Assembly: GCA_031263085.1 (NCBI GenBank)
Contig: JAISGM010000005.1
Location: 1 to 54,529 of the forward strand
Reading direction: 5' to 3'
DNA length: 54,529 nucleotides
From: Coxiellaceae bacterium
Lineage (GTDB): Bacteria; Pseudomonadota; Gammaproteobacteria; UBA9339
The notes under the pieces: generated by a model
The model's input: the letters and a program-made list of their open reading frames with translations, nothing else
Database searches by the model: none
Told to the model about the DNA's origin: nothing
In this document: positions 21,226 through 54,212 of the stretch, in pieces
Position numbering within the stretch: the stretch's first letter is position 1
How the letters are laid out: each line of letters opens with the position of its first letter
Made by a program: the position numbers and the translations under genes

Positions 21226-22638
21226 ATGCGAGAAAAGAATGCATCTCCATTAGTAATAAAAGCTGCGAGGGCAGAGCAAAAAAATCTACCGAAAAATTTG
21301 CCAATTGATCCTGAAATTACCAAAATCAAAATTGACAAAATTGAAGAGATCAATAAAAAGTCGTTACTGGAAATTAAGATAACTAGTCTAACTGAACTTA
21401 AAACAAAAACTCCAAATGAATTGATGAATTTGGCCAACAATTTAGGAGTCGAGAATATTGCACGAATGCGGAAACAGGATATGATTTTTGCCATTCTGAA
21501 AGTGCATGCCCAAAACAATAAAGATATTTTTGGTGGGGGCGTATTAGAGATATTACCTGATGGATTTGGTTTCTTACGATCTGGAGATAGTTCTTATTTA
21601 GCTGGTCCAGATGATATTTATGTATCACCTAGTCAAATTAGGCGCTTCAACTTAAGAACTGGTGATACTGTATCTGGAAAAATTCGACCACCTAAAGATA
21701 GTGAGCGTTATTTTGCTTTACTACAGGTAGATAAAATAAATTTCGATGCTCCGGAAAATACCACTCATAAAATTTTATTCGAAAATCTTACTCCTTTATT
21801 TGCAAATAAACGTCTTAAAATGGAACGAGGAAATGGCTGTTCAGAAGATATTACTGCCAGAATGATTGATTTGATAGTACCTATTGGAAAAGGACAGAGG
21901 GGATTAATAGTATCCCCACCAAAAGCTGGCAAAACTATCATGTTACAAAATATTGCGCATGCTATTACCGCTAATCATCCTGAATGTTACTTAATTGTCT
22001 TACTTATTGACGAACGACCGGAGGAAGTGACTGACATGTCACGCTCTGTGAACGGAGAAGTTATAGCTAGTACTTTTGATGAACCAGCAATTAGACATGT
22101 CCAAGTAGCTGAAATGGTTATCGAGAAAGCTAAACGTCTAACAGAACATAAAAAAGATGTGGTTATCTTACTAGATTCTATTACTCGACTAGCTCGTGCT
22201 TATAATACTACAAGCCCTGCTTCTGGCAAAGTACTAACAGGAGGGGTTGATGCTAATGCTCTACAGCGTCCGAAAAGATTCTTTGGCGCTGCTCGCAATA
22301 TTGAAGAAGGTGGTAGTCTAACTATCATAGCTACTGCATTAGTTGATACTGGATCAAAAATGGATGAAGTAATATATGAAGAATTCAAAGGTACAGGTAA
22401 TATGGAAATTCATTTAGATCGACGGATTGCAGAAAAAAGGGTTTTTCCAGCTATCGATATTAATCGTTCTGGCACTCGTCGTGAAGAGCTTACTGTATCG
22501 CCAGACGAACTACAAAAAATGTGGATTTTACGTAAAATTCTCCACCCAATGGATGAAATCGCAGCAGCAGAATTTCTTATCGACCGCCTTAAAACTACAA
22601 GAACTAACGAAGAGTTCTTCGAGGCTATGAAGAAATAG
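21226..22638 (+). CDS. rho: Transcription termination factor Rho with N-terminal extension
   Basis: Hexameric RNA helicase that ends transcription. From about residue 53 (TSLTELK) the 470-residue product matches the whole 419-residue E. coli protein: the RNA-binding fold with DGFGFLRS, Walker A PPKAGKT at 231-237, LLIDERPEE and the Q-loop/R-loop region. The first 52 residues are extra, lysine-rich and low in hydrophobics. The ATG at 21226 is the only good start; the next ATG would cut into the conserved N-terminal helices. A CTG codon at the expected family start cannot be excluded. Co-transcribed with glmS, 32 bases on. Confidence 0.95.
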
Positions 22639-22670: not shown

Positions 22671-24503
22671 ATGTGTGGTATTGTTGGCGCTGTCTCGGGA
22701 CGCAACATTGCTGATGTTATAATTGAATGCTTAAAGCATTTAGAATATCGGGGGTATGATTCTGCTGGTATTGCTACTATTAATGACCAATGTAGTCTAA
22801 GCTGTATTAAAACAGTTGGCAAAATTGCAGTTTTAATTAATCAATTAAAAATTACACCAGTTATGGGACACATTGGAATAGCCCATACCCGTTGGGCTAC
22901 TCATGGGGCCCCTACAAAATATAATGCTCATCCTCATATTTCTAACAATAGAATTGCCTTAATTCATAATGGCATAATTGAGAATTATGAGGAACTACGA
23001 ATAAAATTACTAAATCAGGGATTCAAATTCACAAGCGATACTGATACTGAGGTTATCGCCCATTTGATCTATAGTTATTTATCGAAATCATCTAATTTAT
23101 TGACGGCAGTCCACGAAGCAATCAAAGAACTTACCGGGGCTTTTGCGTTAGCTATCATTAGTGTATCAGAACCAGATAGAATTATTGCTGTACGTTCTGG
23201 TAGCCCGGTTGTCATCGGCCTAGGGATTAATGAAAACTTTGTCGCATCAGATACCACAGCGTTACTGCAAATAACTAATAACTTTATTTATTTAAATGAA
23301 GGGGATTTAGCAATAATTGAACAGAAAAATGTCAGTATTTTTAATACTGAACTCCAACCGATCAAATATCAAATTAAATCTTCAATGTTATCTGCAGATA
23401 ACATTGAATTAGGACACTATAATCACTTTATGCAAAAAGAAATTTTTGAACAACCTACCGCTCTGGCTAGTACATTAGAAGGTAGATTACTAGACAGTGA
23501 GATTCCAGCGGAAATTTTTGGGAATACCGCAAAAAATATTTTCAATCAAATTACAAGAATTCAAATTATCGCTTGTGGATCAAGTTTGTATTCTGCAATA
23601 GCAGGAAAATACTGGCTAGAAAAATTAGCCAAAATCCCTTGCGAAGTAGAATTTGCTAGCGAATTCCGTTATCGCAGCACCGCTATCGAGTCTAATACCT
23701 TACTCGTTACGATTTCACAATCTGGCGAAACTGCAGATACTTTAGCGGCACTACGTAAAGCCAAAAAACTATCATTTCTTGCTTCTCTTGCGATTTGTAA
23801 TGTTCCAGAAAGTTCTCTAGTACGCGAGTCTGATTTAATATTTCTAACTAGAGCCGGGGTGGAAATTGGAGTAGCTACCACCAAATCTTTTACTGCACAA
23901 TTGACTGCACTTCTAATGTTAGCCATAACTCTAGGAAAACAACGGGGGCTTGAAACAACGTTGATTCAGCATCTAATTAAACAATTAAAAAATCTGCCAT
24001 CTTTAATAGAACAAACTTTAAAACTAAACGATAAGATAAGTGAACTTGCTAAACTATTAGAACACAGCTCAAGTATATTTTATATCGGCAGAGGAACTAG
24101 TTATCCAATTGCTATGGAGGGCGCATTAAAAATAAAGGAGATTTCCTACATTCATGCTGAAAGCTATCCTGCCGGAGAATTAAAACATGGACCATTAGCT
24201 CTAATTGATAACGGAACACCGGTGGTAGTGCTTTCTCCAGCAGATGGTTTATCTGATAAATTAAAATCTAATTTACAGGAGATTCATGCTCGAAAAGGAG
24301 AATTAATTATTTTCGCTGATAAGTCATTACATTATAATAATTACTCTAACTGGCATATTTGTGAAATGCCTATGGTGGATGGAGACCTAGCGCCGATAAT
24401 CTATACTATTCCGTTACAATTACTAGCATACCACGTAGCCTTAATTAAGGGCACAGATATTGATCAACCGAGAAATTTAGCTAAATCAGTGACAGTAGAA
24501 TAA
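22671..24503 (+). CDS. glmS: Glutamine-fructose-6-phosphate aminotransferase
   Basis: Makes glucosamine-6-phosphate for peptidoglycan and lipid A. The 610-residue protein (E. coli 609) starts MCGIVGA with the nucleophile Cys2 (exposed after Met removal), has the glutaminase motifs HTRWATHG and HNGIIENYEE, two SIS sugar-isomerase domains (ACGSSLYSA and GRGTSYPIAMEGALK), and the canonical end LAKSVTVE. GGAG lies nine bases before the ATG. A perfect 28-base palindrome at 23381-23408 falls in the linker just before the conserved HYNHFMQKEI. No glmS ribozyme is expected or seen. Confidence 0.97.
   Translation: MCGIVGAVSGRNIADVIIECLKHLEYRGYDSAGIATINDQCSLSCIKTVGKIAVLINQLKITPVMGHIGIAHTRWATHGAPTKYNAHPHISNNRIALIHNGIIENYEELRIKLLNQGFKFTSDTDTEVIAHLIYSYLSKSSNLLTAVHEAIKELTGAFALAIISVSEPDRIIAVRSGSPVVIGLGINENFVASDTTALLQITNNFIYLNEGDLAIIEQKNVSIFNTELQPIKYQIKSSMLSADNIELGHYNHFMQKEIFEQPTALASTLEGRLLDSEIPAEIFGNTAKNIFNQITRIQIIACGSSLYSAIAGKYWLEKLAKIPCEVEFASEFRYRSTAIESNTLLVTISQSGETADTLAALRKAKKLSFLASLAICNVPESSLVRESDLIFLTRAGVEIGVATTKSFTAQLTALLMLAITLGKQRGLETTLIQHLIKQLKNLPSLIEQTLKLNDKISELAKLLEHSSSIFYIGRGTSYPIAMEGALKIKEISYIHAESYPAGELKHGPLALIDNGTPVVVLSPADGLSDKLKSNLQEIHARKGELIIFADKSLHYNNYSNWHICEMPMVDGDLAPIIYTIPLQLLAYHVALIKGTDIDQPRNLAKSVTVE
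23381..23408. repeat. Perfect 28-base palindrome inside glmS
   Basis: The 14-base arm TTCAATGTTATCTG is followed directly by its exact reverse complement with no spacer. It is wholly coding (S-M-L-S-A-D-N-I-E) and lies in the variable linker between the glutaminase and isomerase domains. Chance occurrence of a 14-base perfect palindrome in a window this size is well below one. Function unknown. Confidence 0.95.
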
Positions 24504-42193: not shown

Positions 42194-42270
42194 TGGCGTG
42201 CTCGACAGGATTTGAACCTGTGACCCTCGGCTTAGAAGGCCGATGCTCTATCCAACTGAGCTACGAGCAC
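42194..42270 (-). tRNA. tRNA-Arg (TCT)
   Basis: 77 bases including an encoded GCCA end. The acceptor stem GTGCTCG/CGAGCAC is perfect, the anticodon loop CTTCTAA carries TCT (reads AGA), and the T-loop is TTCAAAT. AGA is a main arginine codon in AT-rich genes. It precedes tRNA-His on the same strand. Confidence 0.96.
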
Positions 42271-47192: not shown

Positions 47193-47269
47193 TGGCGCGC
47201 CCGGAGAGATTCGAACTCCCTACCCTCTGGTTCGTAGCCAGATACTCTATCCGATTGAGCTACGGGCGC
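47193..47269 (-). tRNA. tRNA-Arg (ACG)
   Basis: 77 bases with an encoded GCCA end. The acceptor stem GCGCCCG/CGGGCGC is perfect, the anticodon loop CTACGAA carries ACG, normally edited to ICG to read CGU, CGC and CGA, and the T-loop is TTCGAAT. This is the usual bacterial CGN tRNA and needs TadA, which is not in the window. Confidence 0.96.
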
Positions 47270-48535: not shown

Positions 48536-51298
48536 GTGAAGGAAATATACGATTTTAAGACAATTGAGAGCTTCTGGTATCAAACGTGGATGCGAAATAA
48601 TTATTTTGCTCCAAGCTATAAAGGCAATCCATATTGTATTATCCTCCCGCCACCAAATGTAACCGGTACTCTTCATATGGGGCACGGTTTTCAAGATAGT
48701 ATTATGGATGCTCTAATTCGTTATCATCGCATGTGCGGATATAATACTTTGTGGCAGTTAGGAATAGATCATGCCGGTATTGCTACTCAAATAATAGTAG
48801 AGAATATTATTCGCCAAGAAGGAGGAACTCGCCATGAACTTGGGCGTGAGAATTTTATAAAAAGAATTTGGGAATGGAAAAAATATTCAGGAAATACCAT
48901 TGCTAAACAAGAACAACGATTGGGTATCTCTGGAGATTGGAATAATGAGAAATTCACCCTTGATCCAGAACTAGTTACGACAGTGAAGTACGTATTTATT
49001 AAATTATATGAGGATGGCTTAATTTATCGCGGTAAACGTTTAGTTAATTGGGATCCGGCATTGAATACAGCTATTTCAGATTTAGAGGTAATAAATGAAG
49101 AAAAAGAAGGAGAATTATGGTATATCAAATACCCCATTGTAGATAGTAACGAGAATGTGATTGTTGCTACTACTCGTCCAGAAACTATTTTTGGGGATGT
49201 TGCAGTAGCGGTACATCCTGCTGATCAACGATATCAACATTTAATTGGCAAACAAGTCAAATTGCCACTTACTGATCGAGTTATCCCAGTAATAGCTGAT
49301 ACTTACGTCGAAAGAGATTTCGGAAGTGGTTGTGTAAAAATAACACCGGCTCACGATTTTAATGATTATTATATTGGACAAAAACATAATTTGCCGATGA
49401 TTAATATTATGACCCCTGATGCCCATCTCAATGAAAATACTCCCAAAAAATATCGAGGATTAGAACGATTTATTTCGAGAAAACAAATAATTGCTGATCT
49501 TGCTGTCAATAATCTTTTAGTTAAAACAGAAAAGCACCTGCTTAAAATTCCTAAAGGAGATCGCAGTGGTGTTATTATCGAGCCTTATTTAACAAACCAA
49601 TGGTTTGTTAAAACCAAGGAATTAGCTACTCCTGCAATTCAAGCGGTATTAAAAGGTGAGATTAAATTTATTCCCAATAATTGGAGCAAAACTTACCTGC
49701 AATGGTTATCTAATATTGAAGATTGGTGTATCAGTCGCCAACTTTGGTGGGGGCATCGTATTCCTGCATGGTATGACGAAAAAAACCATATTTATGTCGG
49801 CAATGATGAAGGGGAAATCCGCGAAAAATTCCAACTTAAAGATCAATTACTTAAGCAAGACACTGATGTATTGGATACTTGGTTTTCTGCCGCTCTATGG
49901 CCGTTCTCAACTTTAGGTTGGCCAGCAAATACCAAAGAATTTAAAACTTTTTACCCTACATCAGTATTAGTTACTGGTTTCGATATTATTTTTTTCTGGG
50001 TAGCTCGTATGATAATGATGGGATTAAAACTTACAGGAAGAATACCATTTAAAGAAATTTATATTACTGGTCTAATCAGAGATAGGCGTGGACAAAAAAT
50101 GTCAAAATCTAAAGGTAATGTTCTAGATCCTATTGATTTAGTTGACGGTATTACTTTAGAAAAATTAGTTTCTAAACGCACCGAACACCTAATGCAGAAA
50201 CATCTGACAAAAAAAATTGAACAACAAACATGCCAAGATTTTCCTCATGGAATTAAAGCTTTTGGTGTTGATGCTTTACGCTTTACTTTTTGCTCTCTGG
50301 CTACTACCAGTAGAGATATTAATTTTGACATCACAAGACTCGAAGGATACAGAAATTTCTGCACTAAACTTTGGAACGCTGCAAGATTTGTTATAATACA
50401 ACTAGAAAAATTCGATTTTACTAAAAGTAGTAAGATTGAATATAGCATCGCTGATCGTTGGATCCAAACAGAGCTACAAAATTCCCTACAAATTGTTATA
50501 GACGAATTTCGGAATTATCGTTTTGATTTAGTAACTCAAGCAATTTATGAATTCACTTGGCACGAATTTTGTGATTGGTATCTTGAATTAACAAAGTCAA
50601 TTTTAAATTCCAATAGCACTAGCATTGCTCTAAAACAAGGAACACGCGTAACTCTAGTTACCATATTTGAAAAACTATTACGTATAATTCATCCATTTAT
50701 GCCATTCATTACTGAAGAAATTTGGCAAGAAATTGCCCCGAAAATGCAAATTATCGGCCAAACAATTATGTGGCAAAAATATCCGGAAGTTGATATAACC
50801 GCAATTGACAATTCAGCATCTGCTGAAATTAAATGGCTAAAAAAGATTATTTTAGCAATTCGTAATTTCCGTGGCGAAATGAGTATCTCGCCAACAGAAA
50901 AAATCCAATTATTACTGGATAAAGGAAGCGAACTTGACAGTAAGCGAATTAGTAACTACCAAGACTATCTTAAAAGTCTTGGTAAACTTTTATCAATCGA
51001 ATGGATTAAAAATAAAACTAAATTTGAAGCTCCTATTTTAGTAGGTACCTTAGAATTATATTTAATCAAGAGTAATACAGAATGTGATCCAACAATTGGA
51101 ATTGCCATGATTAATAAAGAAATAAGAAAACTTGAATACAATATATTGCAACTTGAAGATAAATTAAAGAACATAAATTACCTTACTAAGGCCCCTAAAA
51201 CCATAGTCTCTAAAGATCAGGAAAAACTTGTAGAATATAGAAATCTTCTAAGAAAACTACAAATTAATTTAGAAAATTATAAATTAAAAAAGATTTAA
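48536..51298 (+). CDS. valS: Valyl-tRNA synthetase
   Basis: Class I synthetase charging tRNA-Val, with editing. The 920-residue product (E. coli 951) starts at GTG and has the HIGH motif (PPPNVTGTLHMGH, 38-50), the CP1 editing domain with TTRPETIFGD, the KMSKS loop near residue 521, an anticodon-binding domain and the C-terminal coiled coil with many leucines. The ribosome binding site is weak (CGGA). The gene starts only 14 bases after the tRNA-Met CCA end, so processing of the tRNA would leave a nearly leaderless valS mRNA. It overlaps the convergent murI end by 15 bases. Confidence 0.96.
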   Translation: MKEIYDFKTIESFWYQTWMRNNYFAPSYKGNPYCIILPPPNVTGTLHMGHGFQDSIMDALIRYHRMCGYNTLWQLGIDHAGIATQIIVENIIRQEGGTRHELGRENFIKRIWEWKKYSGNTIAKQEQRLGISGDWNNEKFTLDPELVTTVKYVFIKLYEDGLIYRGKRLVNWDPALNTAISDLEVINEEKEGELWYIKYPIVDSNENVIVATTRPETIFGDVAVAVHPADQRYQHLIGKQVKLPLTDRVIPVIADTYVERDFGSGCVKITPAHDFNDYYIGQKHNLPMINIMTPDAHLNENTPKKYRGLERFISRKQIIADLAVNNLLVKTEKHLLKIPKGDRSGVIIEPYLTNQWFVKTKELATPAIQAVLKGEIKFIPNNWSKTYLQWLSNIEDWCISRQLWWGHRIPAWYDEKNHIYVGNDEGEIREKFQLKDQLLKQDTDVLDTWFSAALWPFSTLGWPANTKEFKTFYPTSVLVTGFDIIFFWVARMIMMGLKLTGRIPFKEIYITGLIRDRRGQKMSKSKGNVLDPIDLVDGITLEKLVSKRTEHLMQKHLTKKIEQQTCQDFPHGIKAFGVDALRFTFCSLATTSRDINFDITRLEGYRNFCTKLWNAARFVIIQLEKFDFTKSSKIEYSIADRWIQTELQNSLQIVIDEFRNYRFDLVTQAIYEFTWHEFCDWYLELTKSILNSNSTSIALKQGTRVTLVTIFEKLLRIIHPFMPFITEEIWQEIAPKMQIIGQTIMWQKYPEVDITAIDNSASAEIKWLKKIILAIRNFRGEMSISPTEKIQLLLDKGSELDSKRISNYQDYLKSLGKLLSIEWIKNKTKFEAPILVGTLELYLIKSNTECDPTIGIAMINKEIRKLEYNILQLEDKLKNINYLTKAPKTIVSKDQEKLVEYRNLLRKLQINLENYKLKKI
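50957..50984. repeat. 10-8-10 inverted repeat in valS
   Basis: TACCAAGACT, eight bases, then the exact reverse complement, in the coding region of the C-terminal part. Member of the set of coding inverted repeats. Confidence 0.88.
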
Positions 51299-52093
51299 CA
51301 CTTTAACTATAATTTCCTTTCCAAAAAACAATTTCACTTGACGCGCAAAACCAGGAACATCATCAGAAACATAAAACATGTGATGTGACTTAGTATCTAC
51401 CGATAATAATTTTCGTATCATAAGTTCTTGTTTGACAGCAGACGCCACCACTTTAGTAGTATCAATAATTTCAATTGCATTATGATAGAAATCGGCTATT
51501 TTTGTTCTGATAATCTGATAGTGAGTACAGCCTAAAATTAATGCCTCTATTCCCTGTAACTCAGGATCTGATAAGTACATTTTTAATGCAACGTTCATAA
51601 TTTTGTGATCATAAAATCCCTCTTCTATAAGGGGCACCAATAATGGTGTAGCTAGAGCATGTAAACTAATATTAGATTTTTGTAAGGAAAGCTTTTTATG
51701 ATAGATTTTGGAATCTAAAGTAAGCTTAGTTCCTATTAAACCAACTCTTTTATTAACGTAATTCTTGTTTAAAAAGTTGATTGCTGGATCAATAACATTA
51801 ACAAGAGGAACATCAGCTCCAATATAATCTCGTAGCATCGAATAAGCAGCAGAAACAGAATTACAAGCTACTAAAATTAATTTAACATTTTGTTCAAGCA
51901 GAAAATCGATAATTTTTTTAGTATATCCGCGAATGATTTTAGCGGATTTATCTCCATACGGTAAATGAAGAGTATCTCCGAAATAAATTATTGATTCATT
52001 TGGCAACTCATCAATCAGTGATTTAGCAACAGTTAACCCACCAATACCGCTATCAAAAATACCTATTGATTGATTTGCTCTTAAATTCAACAT
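51284..52093 (-). CDS. murI: Glutamate racemase
   Basis: Makes D-glutamate for peptidoglycan. The 269-residue protein (E. coli 285) has Asp14 in FDSGIGG, the two catalytic cysteines Cys77 in VACNSVSA and Cys189 in LGCTHY, and YFGDTLHLPYG. The family usually has ACNTASA, so the Thr-Ala pair is Ser-Val here, a mild change. Its 3' end overlaps valS by 15 bases. It is a single gene. Confidence 0.95.
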   Translation of the reverse strand: MLNLRANQSIGIFDSGIGGLTVAKSLIDELPNESIIYFGDTLHLPYGDKSAKIIRGYTKKIIDFLLEQNVKLILVACNSVSAAYSMLRDYIGADVPLVNVIDPAINFLNKNYVNKRVGLIGTKLTLDSKIYHKKLSLQKSNISLHALATPLLVPLIEEGFYDHKIMNVALKMYLSDPELQGIEALILGCTHYQIIRTKIADFYHNAIEIIDTTKVVASAVKQELMIRKLLSVDTKSHHMFYVSDDVPGFARQVKLFFGKEIIVKVLNLF

Positions 52094-52412
52094 AATATCA
52101 GTCTAACAAAATATTACTATAATGATAATTTATTTCACATGCTCATTTAAGAAAATTTATACTTACAAAATAATTTAAATTCTTACGAATTCGCATCAAA
52201 AAAACTACTCATAGATGATGCTTAACATCAGTTGCTGAATTACGATAGTATCCATAGCTCAGTCAGATAGCGTTGATCTCCGAAATCAAAGGGATCTCTC
52301 CTGGTTTAAACCCAATCATGCGCGCTATTCTCTGCAAATTATTTTTATTCTATTTAACTAAATTAACTGATTTCATATAGAAACTACTACATGAAAAAAT
52401 CAAGTAATACGA
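52094..52412. other. 319-base gap between murI and lepA
   Basis: No protein-coding gene. The only structure is the tRNA-like stretch at 52248-52325 (listed separately) and a small 5-5-5 hairpin near 52216-52230. The murI promoter should be in the left part. Confidence 0.6.
52248..52325 (+). pseudogene. Degenerate tRNA-Arg (CCG)
   Basis: Aligns by eye along its whole length with tRNA-Arg(CCG) such as E. coli argX. TAGCTCAG and a perfect anticodon arm TTGAT-CTCCGAA-ATCAA with CCG at 52280-52282 survive, and the 3' part ends GCGCGC. Other parts have decayed: the 5' arm GTATCCA no longer pairs with the 3' end, the D-stem's second strand has lost two bases, the GG of the D-loop is changed, the T-loop is TTTAAAC instead of TTCGAAT and its stem keeps about three pairs, and there is no CCA. 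It cannot form a normal tRNA. Confidence 0.8.
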
Positions 52413-54212
52413 TTAATAACCAACTTTAAGAATATCAACAAATGTTTCTTGCGGAATATCTACTTTACCCAAACGTTTCATTCGCTTCTTACCCTCTTTC
52501 TGTCTCTCAAGTAATTTTCTTTTACGAGTAACATCGCCGCCATAACATTTAGCTAGAACATTTTTACGCAAGGCTTTAATTACCTGTCTTACAATAATTC
52601 GTGAACCGATAGCTGCTTGAATCACCACTTCAAACATTTGACGGGGAATTAAATCCTTCATAGCTTCTACCAATTTATACCCACGACTATAAGCTTTATC
52701 TCTATGCACAATTAAAGAAAAGGCATCCACCTTATCACCGTTAATTAAAATATCAAGCTTAACTAGATCAGCTGCAGAAAAATGATCAAAACTATAATTT
52801 AAAGAGGCATAACCACAACTAATCGATTTAAGACGATCAAAAAAATCTAAAATTATTTCATTCATAGGTAAAAAATACTTTAAAGATACCTGGTTACCTA
52901 TGAAATCCATACTAATTTGATTACCCCGACGCTCTATACAAAGTTTAATAACATTCCCTAAATATTCTCGAGGCACTAAAATAGTGGCACAAGCTACTGG
53001 TTCGCGAATCTCAATAATTTTACCTAAAATTGACAGCTGAGCTGGATTAGAAATAGTCAGTACTTTATCGTTTGATGCTATCACCATATAAACTACTGTC
53101 GGAGCAGAAACAACTAAATTTAAATTATATTCTCTCTTTAATCGCTCCTGAATAATTTCTAAATGTAACATTCCTAAAAAACCACAACGAAAACCCATAC
53201 CTAGAGCCTCTGAAGTTTCAGGCTCATAACTCAATGATGCATCATTGAGGCGCAATTTAGCAAAAGCTTCACGGAAACTCTCAAAATCATTTGCATTAAT
53301 AGGATAGAGTCCTGCATATACTTGAGATTTAGCCTTTTTAAATCCGGAAAGTTGCTCTATAGCAGGAATAGAGCTATGTGTTAAGGTGTCTCCAACTGGA
53401 GCTCCAAAAATATCTTTGATATTAGCTACTACATAACCAACATCACCAGCAGCCAATTGATCAGTTATTTGACGTTTAGGAGTGAATATTCCAACCATCT
53501 CTACGCTATAATCTCTACCAGTTGACATAACACGAATTTTATCATGTGTTTTTAATACACCATTCATTACTCGCACCAGAGAAACTACACCTAAATAATT
53601 ATCAAACCAAGAATCTATAATCAACGCCTGTAACGGTTTAGATCTATTTCCGCTTGGAGGTGGTACATACTTTACAATATCTACTAACAGTTCCCTAATC
53701 CCAATACCATTTTTAGCACTCACTCTCAAAGCATCAGTAGCAGCTATCCCTACAATTCCCTCAATTTCTTTAATAACTCGATCTTGATCTGCTTGAGATA
53801 GATCTATTTTATTAAGTACAGGAATTATCCTTAATCCTTGATCAATAGCCATACAACAAACAGTCACAGTCTGCGCCTCAACGCCTTGAGCTGCATCCAC
53901 TAATAATAAGGCGCCTTCACAAGCTGCAAGAGATCTTGAAACTTCATAAGAAAAATCTACATGTCCAGGGGTATCAATAAAATTGAGATAATATTCTACT
54001 CCGTCCTGAGAGCAATACTTCAAAGTTACACTTTGAGCTTTAATAGTAATTCCTCTCTCCCTTTCAATATCCATACTATCCAATACTTGATCTTGCATTT
54101 CTCGTGAAGAAAGTCCACCGCATTCCTGAATCAAACGATCAGCCAAAGTAGATTTACCATGATCAACATGAGCAATAATGCAAAAATTACGAATATTATT
54201 TTGATTATTCAT
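52413..54212 (-). CDS. lepA: Elongation factor 4 (LepA), translational GTPase
   Basis: Ribosome-binding GTPase that helps initiation and back-translocation under stress. The 599-residue product has exactly the E. coli length. G1 is AHVDHGKS at 14-21, then [13 protein letters not shown] and NKID. Domains II-V follow, and the C-terminal LepA-specific domain has [13 protein letters not shown]. In many relatives lepA precedes lepB; nothing follows it here on this strand for 319 bases. It holds a 20-base perfect palindrome (53230-53249) and an 11-base-arm inverted repeat (52861-52904). Confidence 0.97.
52861..52904. repeat. 11-22-11 inverted repeat in lepA
   Basis: TTCATAGGTAA and its exact complement TTACCTATGAA, 22 bases apart, in coding sequence. 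Confidence 0.85.
53230..53249. repeat. Perfect 20-base palindrome in lepA
   Basis: CTCAATGATG followed directly by CATCATTGAG. It codes for L-N-D-A-S-L, a conserved stretch of LepA, using codons that make the DNA exactly symmetrical. Confidence 0.93.

Follow-up and report, generated by a model that had tools for sequence, protein, structure and literature searches.

A decayed tRNA-Arg(CCG) gene in a Coxiellaceae bacterium whose CGG codons are most likely read by tRNA-Arg(UCG)

Known cases of tRNA-Arg(CCG) loss

The closest described system is the replacement between two arginine tRNAs documented by Wald & Margalit (2014, PMC4041420). With I34 in place, either tRNA-Arg(UCG) or tRNA-Arg(CCG) is needed, and each is auxiliary to the other. 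Their counts give 239 genomes with CCG, 24 with UCG, and 26 with both. The UCG tRNA goes with low GC and is gained as a replacement upon loss of CCG; in two cases it arose from tRNA-Arg(ACG) by a change of A to T at position 34 (PMC4041420).

The case described here comes from a Coxiellaceae bacterium (GCA_031263085.1). The window is the whole stretch of DNA that was analysed, 54,529 nucleotides long. As in the survey of Wald & Margalit (PMC4041420), ACG together with UCG or CCG suffices, GC is low, and UCG appears to derive from ACG at position 34. Unlike that survey, which recorded presence and absence in 319 genomes, the present case has a dying CCG gene visible at its ancestral site and a measured depletion of CGG.

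Another system is found in Mollicutes, where CCG has been lost and CGG depleted, and where some species use UCG (Yokobori et al. 2013, PMC3711424). The likeness lies in the loss of CCG from a reduced, AT-rich genome with CGG depleted, a problem that UCG relieves in some species. The difference lies in TadA, which is lost or altered in many Mollicutes, so that ACG may itself read CGG; the present bacterium encodes TadA, and CGG would plausibly be read by UCG.

A related event is known from yeast. Yona et al. in 2013 reportedly followed laboratory evolution after the deletion of a tRNA gene, and the anticodon of another tRNA switched to cover the codon of the lost isoacceptor. Here too one tRNA would take over the codon of a lost isoacceptor for the same amino acid. 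In contrast with the laboratory yeast, the present case is natural and bacterial, and its order of events is reconstructed.

Finally, CGG has been reassigned in some low-GC clades, and the presence of tRNA-Arg(UCG) complicates splitting CGA from CGG (Shulgina & Eddy 2021, PMC8629427). The bacterium studied here shares the low GC and the rarity of CGG with those bacteria. Unlike them, it has kept CGG as an arginine codon and has tRNA-Arg(UCG).

Table 1. Features discussed in the text. Positions are those of the window unless contig C5 is given.
Feature	Position	Strand	Remarks
Decayed tRNA-Arg(CCG)	52248..52325	+	Rfam tRNA model and CCG covariance model, alignment, gene order shared with intact copies in three congeners
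Anticodon stem-loop of the relic, TTGAT CTCCGAA ATCAA	52274..52290	+	Fully paired; anticodon CCG at 52281-52283
murI (glutamate racemase)	51284..52093	-	Left neighbour of the relic; beside intact CCG in G002 too
lepA (elongation factor 4)	52413..54212	-	Right neighbour of the relic; beside intact CCG in G001 and G003 too
tRNA-Arg(ACG)	47193..47269	-	Likely parent of tRNA-Arg(UCG) on contig C5
tRNA-Arg(TCT)	42194..42270	-	Intact; reads AGA/AGG; context for the Arg repertoire
tRNA-Arg(UCG)	C5:12292-12368		Intact; ARAGORN on the whole assembly
CGG codon, rho residue 400	22423..22425	+	In frame
CGG codon, glmS residue 27	22749..22751	+	In frame

The relic and its damage

The relic is set between murI and lepA. 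ARAGORN calls no tRNA over 52248-52325. With the Rfam tRNA model the region reaches 15.7 bits (genome-wide E 0.4), where the gathering score is 29 and the 39 intact tRNAs of the assembly reach 51-75 bits. A covariance model of our own, based on nine intact gammaproteobacterial tRNA-Arg(CCG) genes, scores it at 21.4 bits when the whole 427 kb is searched (E 0.04) and at 21.8 bits when the local 3.2 kb is searched (E 2e-4).

Four congeneric genomes (G001, G002, G003 and G004) were compared with this one (G000). The relic aligns with the intact tRNA-Arg(CCG) of G003 at 74% identity across 73 bases, and the G003 gene used as query recovers the relic from the whole assembly (E 4e-5). A plasmid blastn search with the relic as query gave no match. 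The low general-model score and its E value would fit a chance resemblance to a tRNA. Such a coincidence is refuted by this alignment and by intact CCG genes that stand in exactly the same synteny and orientation, and its probability is negligible.

The damage was read from the alignment with the G003 gene, and base pairs were counted by hand. Of the seven acceptor positions (GTATCCA/CATGCGC), four are mismatched, leaving one Watson-Crick and two G-T pairs. The D arm has a 2-base deletion, with three of its four stem pairs still possible, and the G18G19 pair of bases has become AG. Five bases have been inserted ahead of the T stem, which keeps three of its five pairs. The T loop has changed from TTCGAAC to TTTAAAC, with loss of C56, and the 3' end reads CTA in place of CCA. 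The earlier note, written from the letters of the window, had described a decaying tRNA-Arg(CCG) here, with its anticodon arm intact and its acceptor, D and T arms broken. Both its coordinates and its description agree with the alignment, the covariance models and the congener synteny, and covariance models do give the region a score, although a low one with the Rfam model.

The anticodon stem-loop raises the question of whether the relic might still work, as a degenerate tRNA or with the help of editing, with this arm under selection. The arm is fully paired. At two places where the congeners have G-C it now has A-T, both partners having changed (from GGC/GCC in G003 to GAT/ATC), and the CCG gene of G002 has a G-T intermediate at one of these two pairs. 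However, all four changes replace G or C by A or T, and the genome has a GC content of 32.5%. If four of the six bases in three G-C pairs are picked at random for mutation, 3 of 15 draws (0.2) leave both changed pairs matched. Since the changes are all in one direction and would pair by chance about one time in five, they are no sign of continued selection, and the pairing is weak evidence of function. Further, the four acceptor mismatches, the 5-base insertion, and the loss of C56, of one G18G19 base and of CCA all count against function, as does a score of 15.7 bits when every other tRNA has 51 or more. Editing would need to mend several mismatches plus indels. A working relic is therefore very improbable.

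Orthologous genes in the genus

In G002 an intact tRNA-Arg(CCG) adjoins murI, and in G001 and G003 one adjoins lepA. In all three genomes it points the same way as the relic with respect to murI and lepA. The surrounding block in G002 (murI, valS, tRNA-Met, a holC-like gene, tRNA-Ser and tRNA-Arg(ACG)) matches the window gene by gene. Because the CCG gene of the congeners is single and stands exactly at the relic's place, the relic is the remnant of the orthologous gene and not of an extra copy. The lepA matches of G001 (L085) and of a further relative, G005 (L086), contain one stop codon inside the match or at its edge. A wider scan with LepA reached 66% at best, in a Legionellaceae MAG, which by itself places the genome in the class Gammaproteobacteria.

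The relic thus combines homology to tRNA-Arg(CCG), loss of functional features, and an intact ortholog at the matching place in G001, G002 and G003. Judged from sequence, 52248-52325 appears to be a pseudogene of tRNA-Arg(CCG) that would formerly have read CGG.

The genus as a whole shows several combinations of the two genes. Both UCG and CCG are present in G001 and G003, and G000 has UCG with the CCG relic. In G002 there is CCG and no UCG was found; in G004 there is UCG and no CCG was found.

The possibility of a second CCG gene

No second CCG gene was found by the Rfam model, ARAGORN or a pattern search in the 427 kb assembly, estimated by the tool to be about 70% complete. G000 also has no 16S match and no argS above the cut-off, and its genes for tRNA-Trp, -Ile, -Ala(UGC) and -Lys(UUU) were not found. 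These absences are probably due to missing contigs rather than to biology. The congeners have 1.0-1.9 Mb, which suggests either a reduced genome or a partial assembly.

A functional tRNA-Arg(CCG) could then persist in the unassembled part of the genome, with the relic as an old duplicate. The incompleteness of the assembly, in which argS and rRNA are likewise not found, speaks for this. Against it, the relic stands where the congeners have their only copy, so that it is the ortholog itself; CGG is specifically depleted, as described below; and with an intact UCG gene, no hidden CCG gene is needed. An unassembled copy is accordingly unlikely.

The arginine tRNA repertoire

A search of the whole assembly finds an intact tRNA-Arg(UCG) on contig C5, with at least 66 bits and a complete structure. 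TadA and MnmG are both encoded in G000. A U at position 34 pairs with codons ending in A and in G by ordinary wobble. Thus U34 of tRNA-Arg(UCG) should read CGA and CGG, and because this intact gene is present, CGG is not orphaned. For tRNA-Arg(ACG), TadA would deaminate position 34 to I34, which would read CGU, CGC and CGA.

Both tRNA-Arg(ACG) and tRNA-Arg(UCG) have A15 with A48 (GGGTA), where an R15-Y48 Levitt pair is usual. At these positions A15-C48 is found in the nearest relative.

CGG codons

CGG is rare in this genome and persists. Of the 324 ORFs of at least 150 amino acids, 119 contain CGG, with 169 such codons in all; these make up 3.0% of arginine codons genome-wide, or 1.4 per 1000 codons. 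In alignments with relatives, the columns at CGG hold arginine in 54 of 65 cells, and CGT and CGC behave alike. One CGG, at LepA residue 429, encodes an arginine that is invariant in the alignment (14 of 14). These columns indicate that CGG keeps its arginine meaning.

The low GC, the rarity of CGG, the dead CCG gene and the precedents in low-GC clades (PMC8629427) would all suit a CGG that is unassigned or has been reassigned to another amino acid. The arginine columns, with the invariant LepA residue among them, and the presence of tRNA-Arg(UCG) make this extremely unlikely. Reassignment would show as CGG columns conserved for some other amino acid, and the same 54 of 65 cells speak against it.

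The use of CGG has also shifted. G002 serves as the reference for codon comparison, being the nearest relative, one that keeps CCG and in which no UCG was found. In 69 shared genes, CGG makes up 14% of CGA plus CGG in G000 and 42% in G002 (odds ratio 0.23, p 1.7e-10). All other NNA/NNG pairs pooled have a shift ratio of 0.84 between the two genomes, and CGC, which is also GC-rich, is nearly equal at 10.5% and 10.9% of arginine codons. Since the other A/G pairs and CGC have barely moved, the depletion is specific to CGG and goes beyond low GC. Such a depletion is as expected if a dedicated CCG tRNA has been lost. Positions with CGG in G002 most often have CGA (22), AGA (18) or CGT (14) in G000. 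Comparisons with G001, G003 and G005 go in the same direction with smaller samples, and the difference from G004, in which no CCG was found, is smaller (p 0.18).

The share of GGG in GGA plus GGG is also lower in G000 than in G002 (21% and 37%), despite an intact tRNA-Gly(CCC).

Origin of tRNA-Arg(UCG)

The UCG gene of G000 and the ACG gene of the window share 76 of 77 bases, with zero differences outside position 34; the sole difference, A34 to T34 (C5:12326), rests on one assembly. A tree joins the two as sisters, with 97/89 support, and places them on the ACG side. G001, G003 and G004 have UCG genes of a distinct type, which T-stem sites separate from ACG. At every one of these sites the UCG gene of G000 has the ACG state, and it differs from the other three UCG genes at 12-14 positions. 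The comparison points to an origin of the present UCG gene from an ACG gene.

Two routes may be proposed. A duplicate of the ACG gene could have mutated from A34 to T34; alternatively, the body of an ACG gene could have overwritten an older UCG gene that retained T34. A duplication that included the flanks is ruled out, as the flanks of the two genes are unrelated. In G000 the UCG gene is found 1.5 kb downstream of radA. A UCG gene and radA share one contig in G001, G003 and G004 too, with different genes between them. Both routes fit this position near radA, and either way position 34 alone carries the change.

Other landmarks were compared as well. The site after glyA that holds the UCG gene in G001 is without a tRNA in G000 and G002. 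In G000 the UCG gene follows ampG; at that place G002 has an apparent transposase fragment and the end of a contig. A proposed synteny with proS was rejected, as no relative has a tRNA upstream of proS. In G002, which is 96% complete, no UCG gene was found, and some other tRNAs are also absent from its assembly.

One scenario for these data is loss followed by re-invention. The common ancestor of G000 and G002 would have lost the old, distinct UCG gene that is still present in G001, G003 and G004, and G000 would have remade UCG from an ACG copy by one mutation; the CCG gene would now be dying, with CGG draining to CGA. This sequence of events has about an even chance of being correct.

On contig C58 of G002 the 3' half of tRNA-Arg(ACG) is repeated over 46 bases (L122:11255-11300), 1.6 kb downstream of the intact gene. 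This copy resembles the trace of an element integrated into a tRNA. In G003 an integrase-like ORF adjoins tRNA-Arg(UCG).

Probable replacement of CCG by UCG

The best explanation, with a probability of roughly 0.87, is that the relic is a pseudogene made dispensable by an ACG-derived tRNA-Arg(UCG) that reads CGA and CGG, and that the CCG gene decayed as CGG grew rare. AT-biased mutation would make CGG rare. The CCG gene, dispensable because the lineage has tRNA-Arg(UCG), would decay, and CGG codons would drift mainly to CGA, AGA and CGT. The job of reading CGG has thus most likely passed to tRNA-Arg(UCG). Expression and charging of this tRNA, its reading of CGG, and the order of events are all inferred from sequence.

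The earlier note was right that CGG codons remain in use, with its examples in rho and glmS present and in frame, and right that I34 of tRNA-Arg(ACG) is not expected to read CGG. Its interpretation fared less well. It had offered three explanations, namely a good copy elsewhere, an unusual reading of CGG, or an odd tRNA made functional by editing. The first found no match in the incomplete 427 kb assembly, the second disagrees with the arginine columns, and the third with the loss of acceptor pairing, T loop and CCA. The fourth, an intact tRNA-Arg(UCG) on another contig, was not visible from the window.

The same pattern can be seen across the class. A survey of Gammaproteobacteria took one genome per family, with few exceptions, and covered about 112 genomes. 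CCG is kept in 6 of 22 genomes that bear UCG (G000 not counted), compared with about 80 of 90 without UCG (Fisher 2e-8); these counts come from exact 21-base patterns from the D arm to the anticodon, whose matches were sorted by eye, and families that are related do not count as independent. UCG and CCG therefore tend to be mutually exclusive across gammaproteobacterial families.

The case is clearly ordinary in kind, a well-resolved new example of the known replacement between UCG and CCG. It removes a false lead, as no unusual decoding or editing of CGG is needed. With a close relative for comparison, what the loss of CCG costs at the level of codons becomes measurable, and the genus forms a compact natural series that covers both states and the transition between them. 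If loss and re-invention did occur, a natural transition would here have been caught midway.
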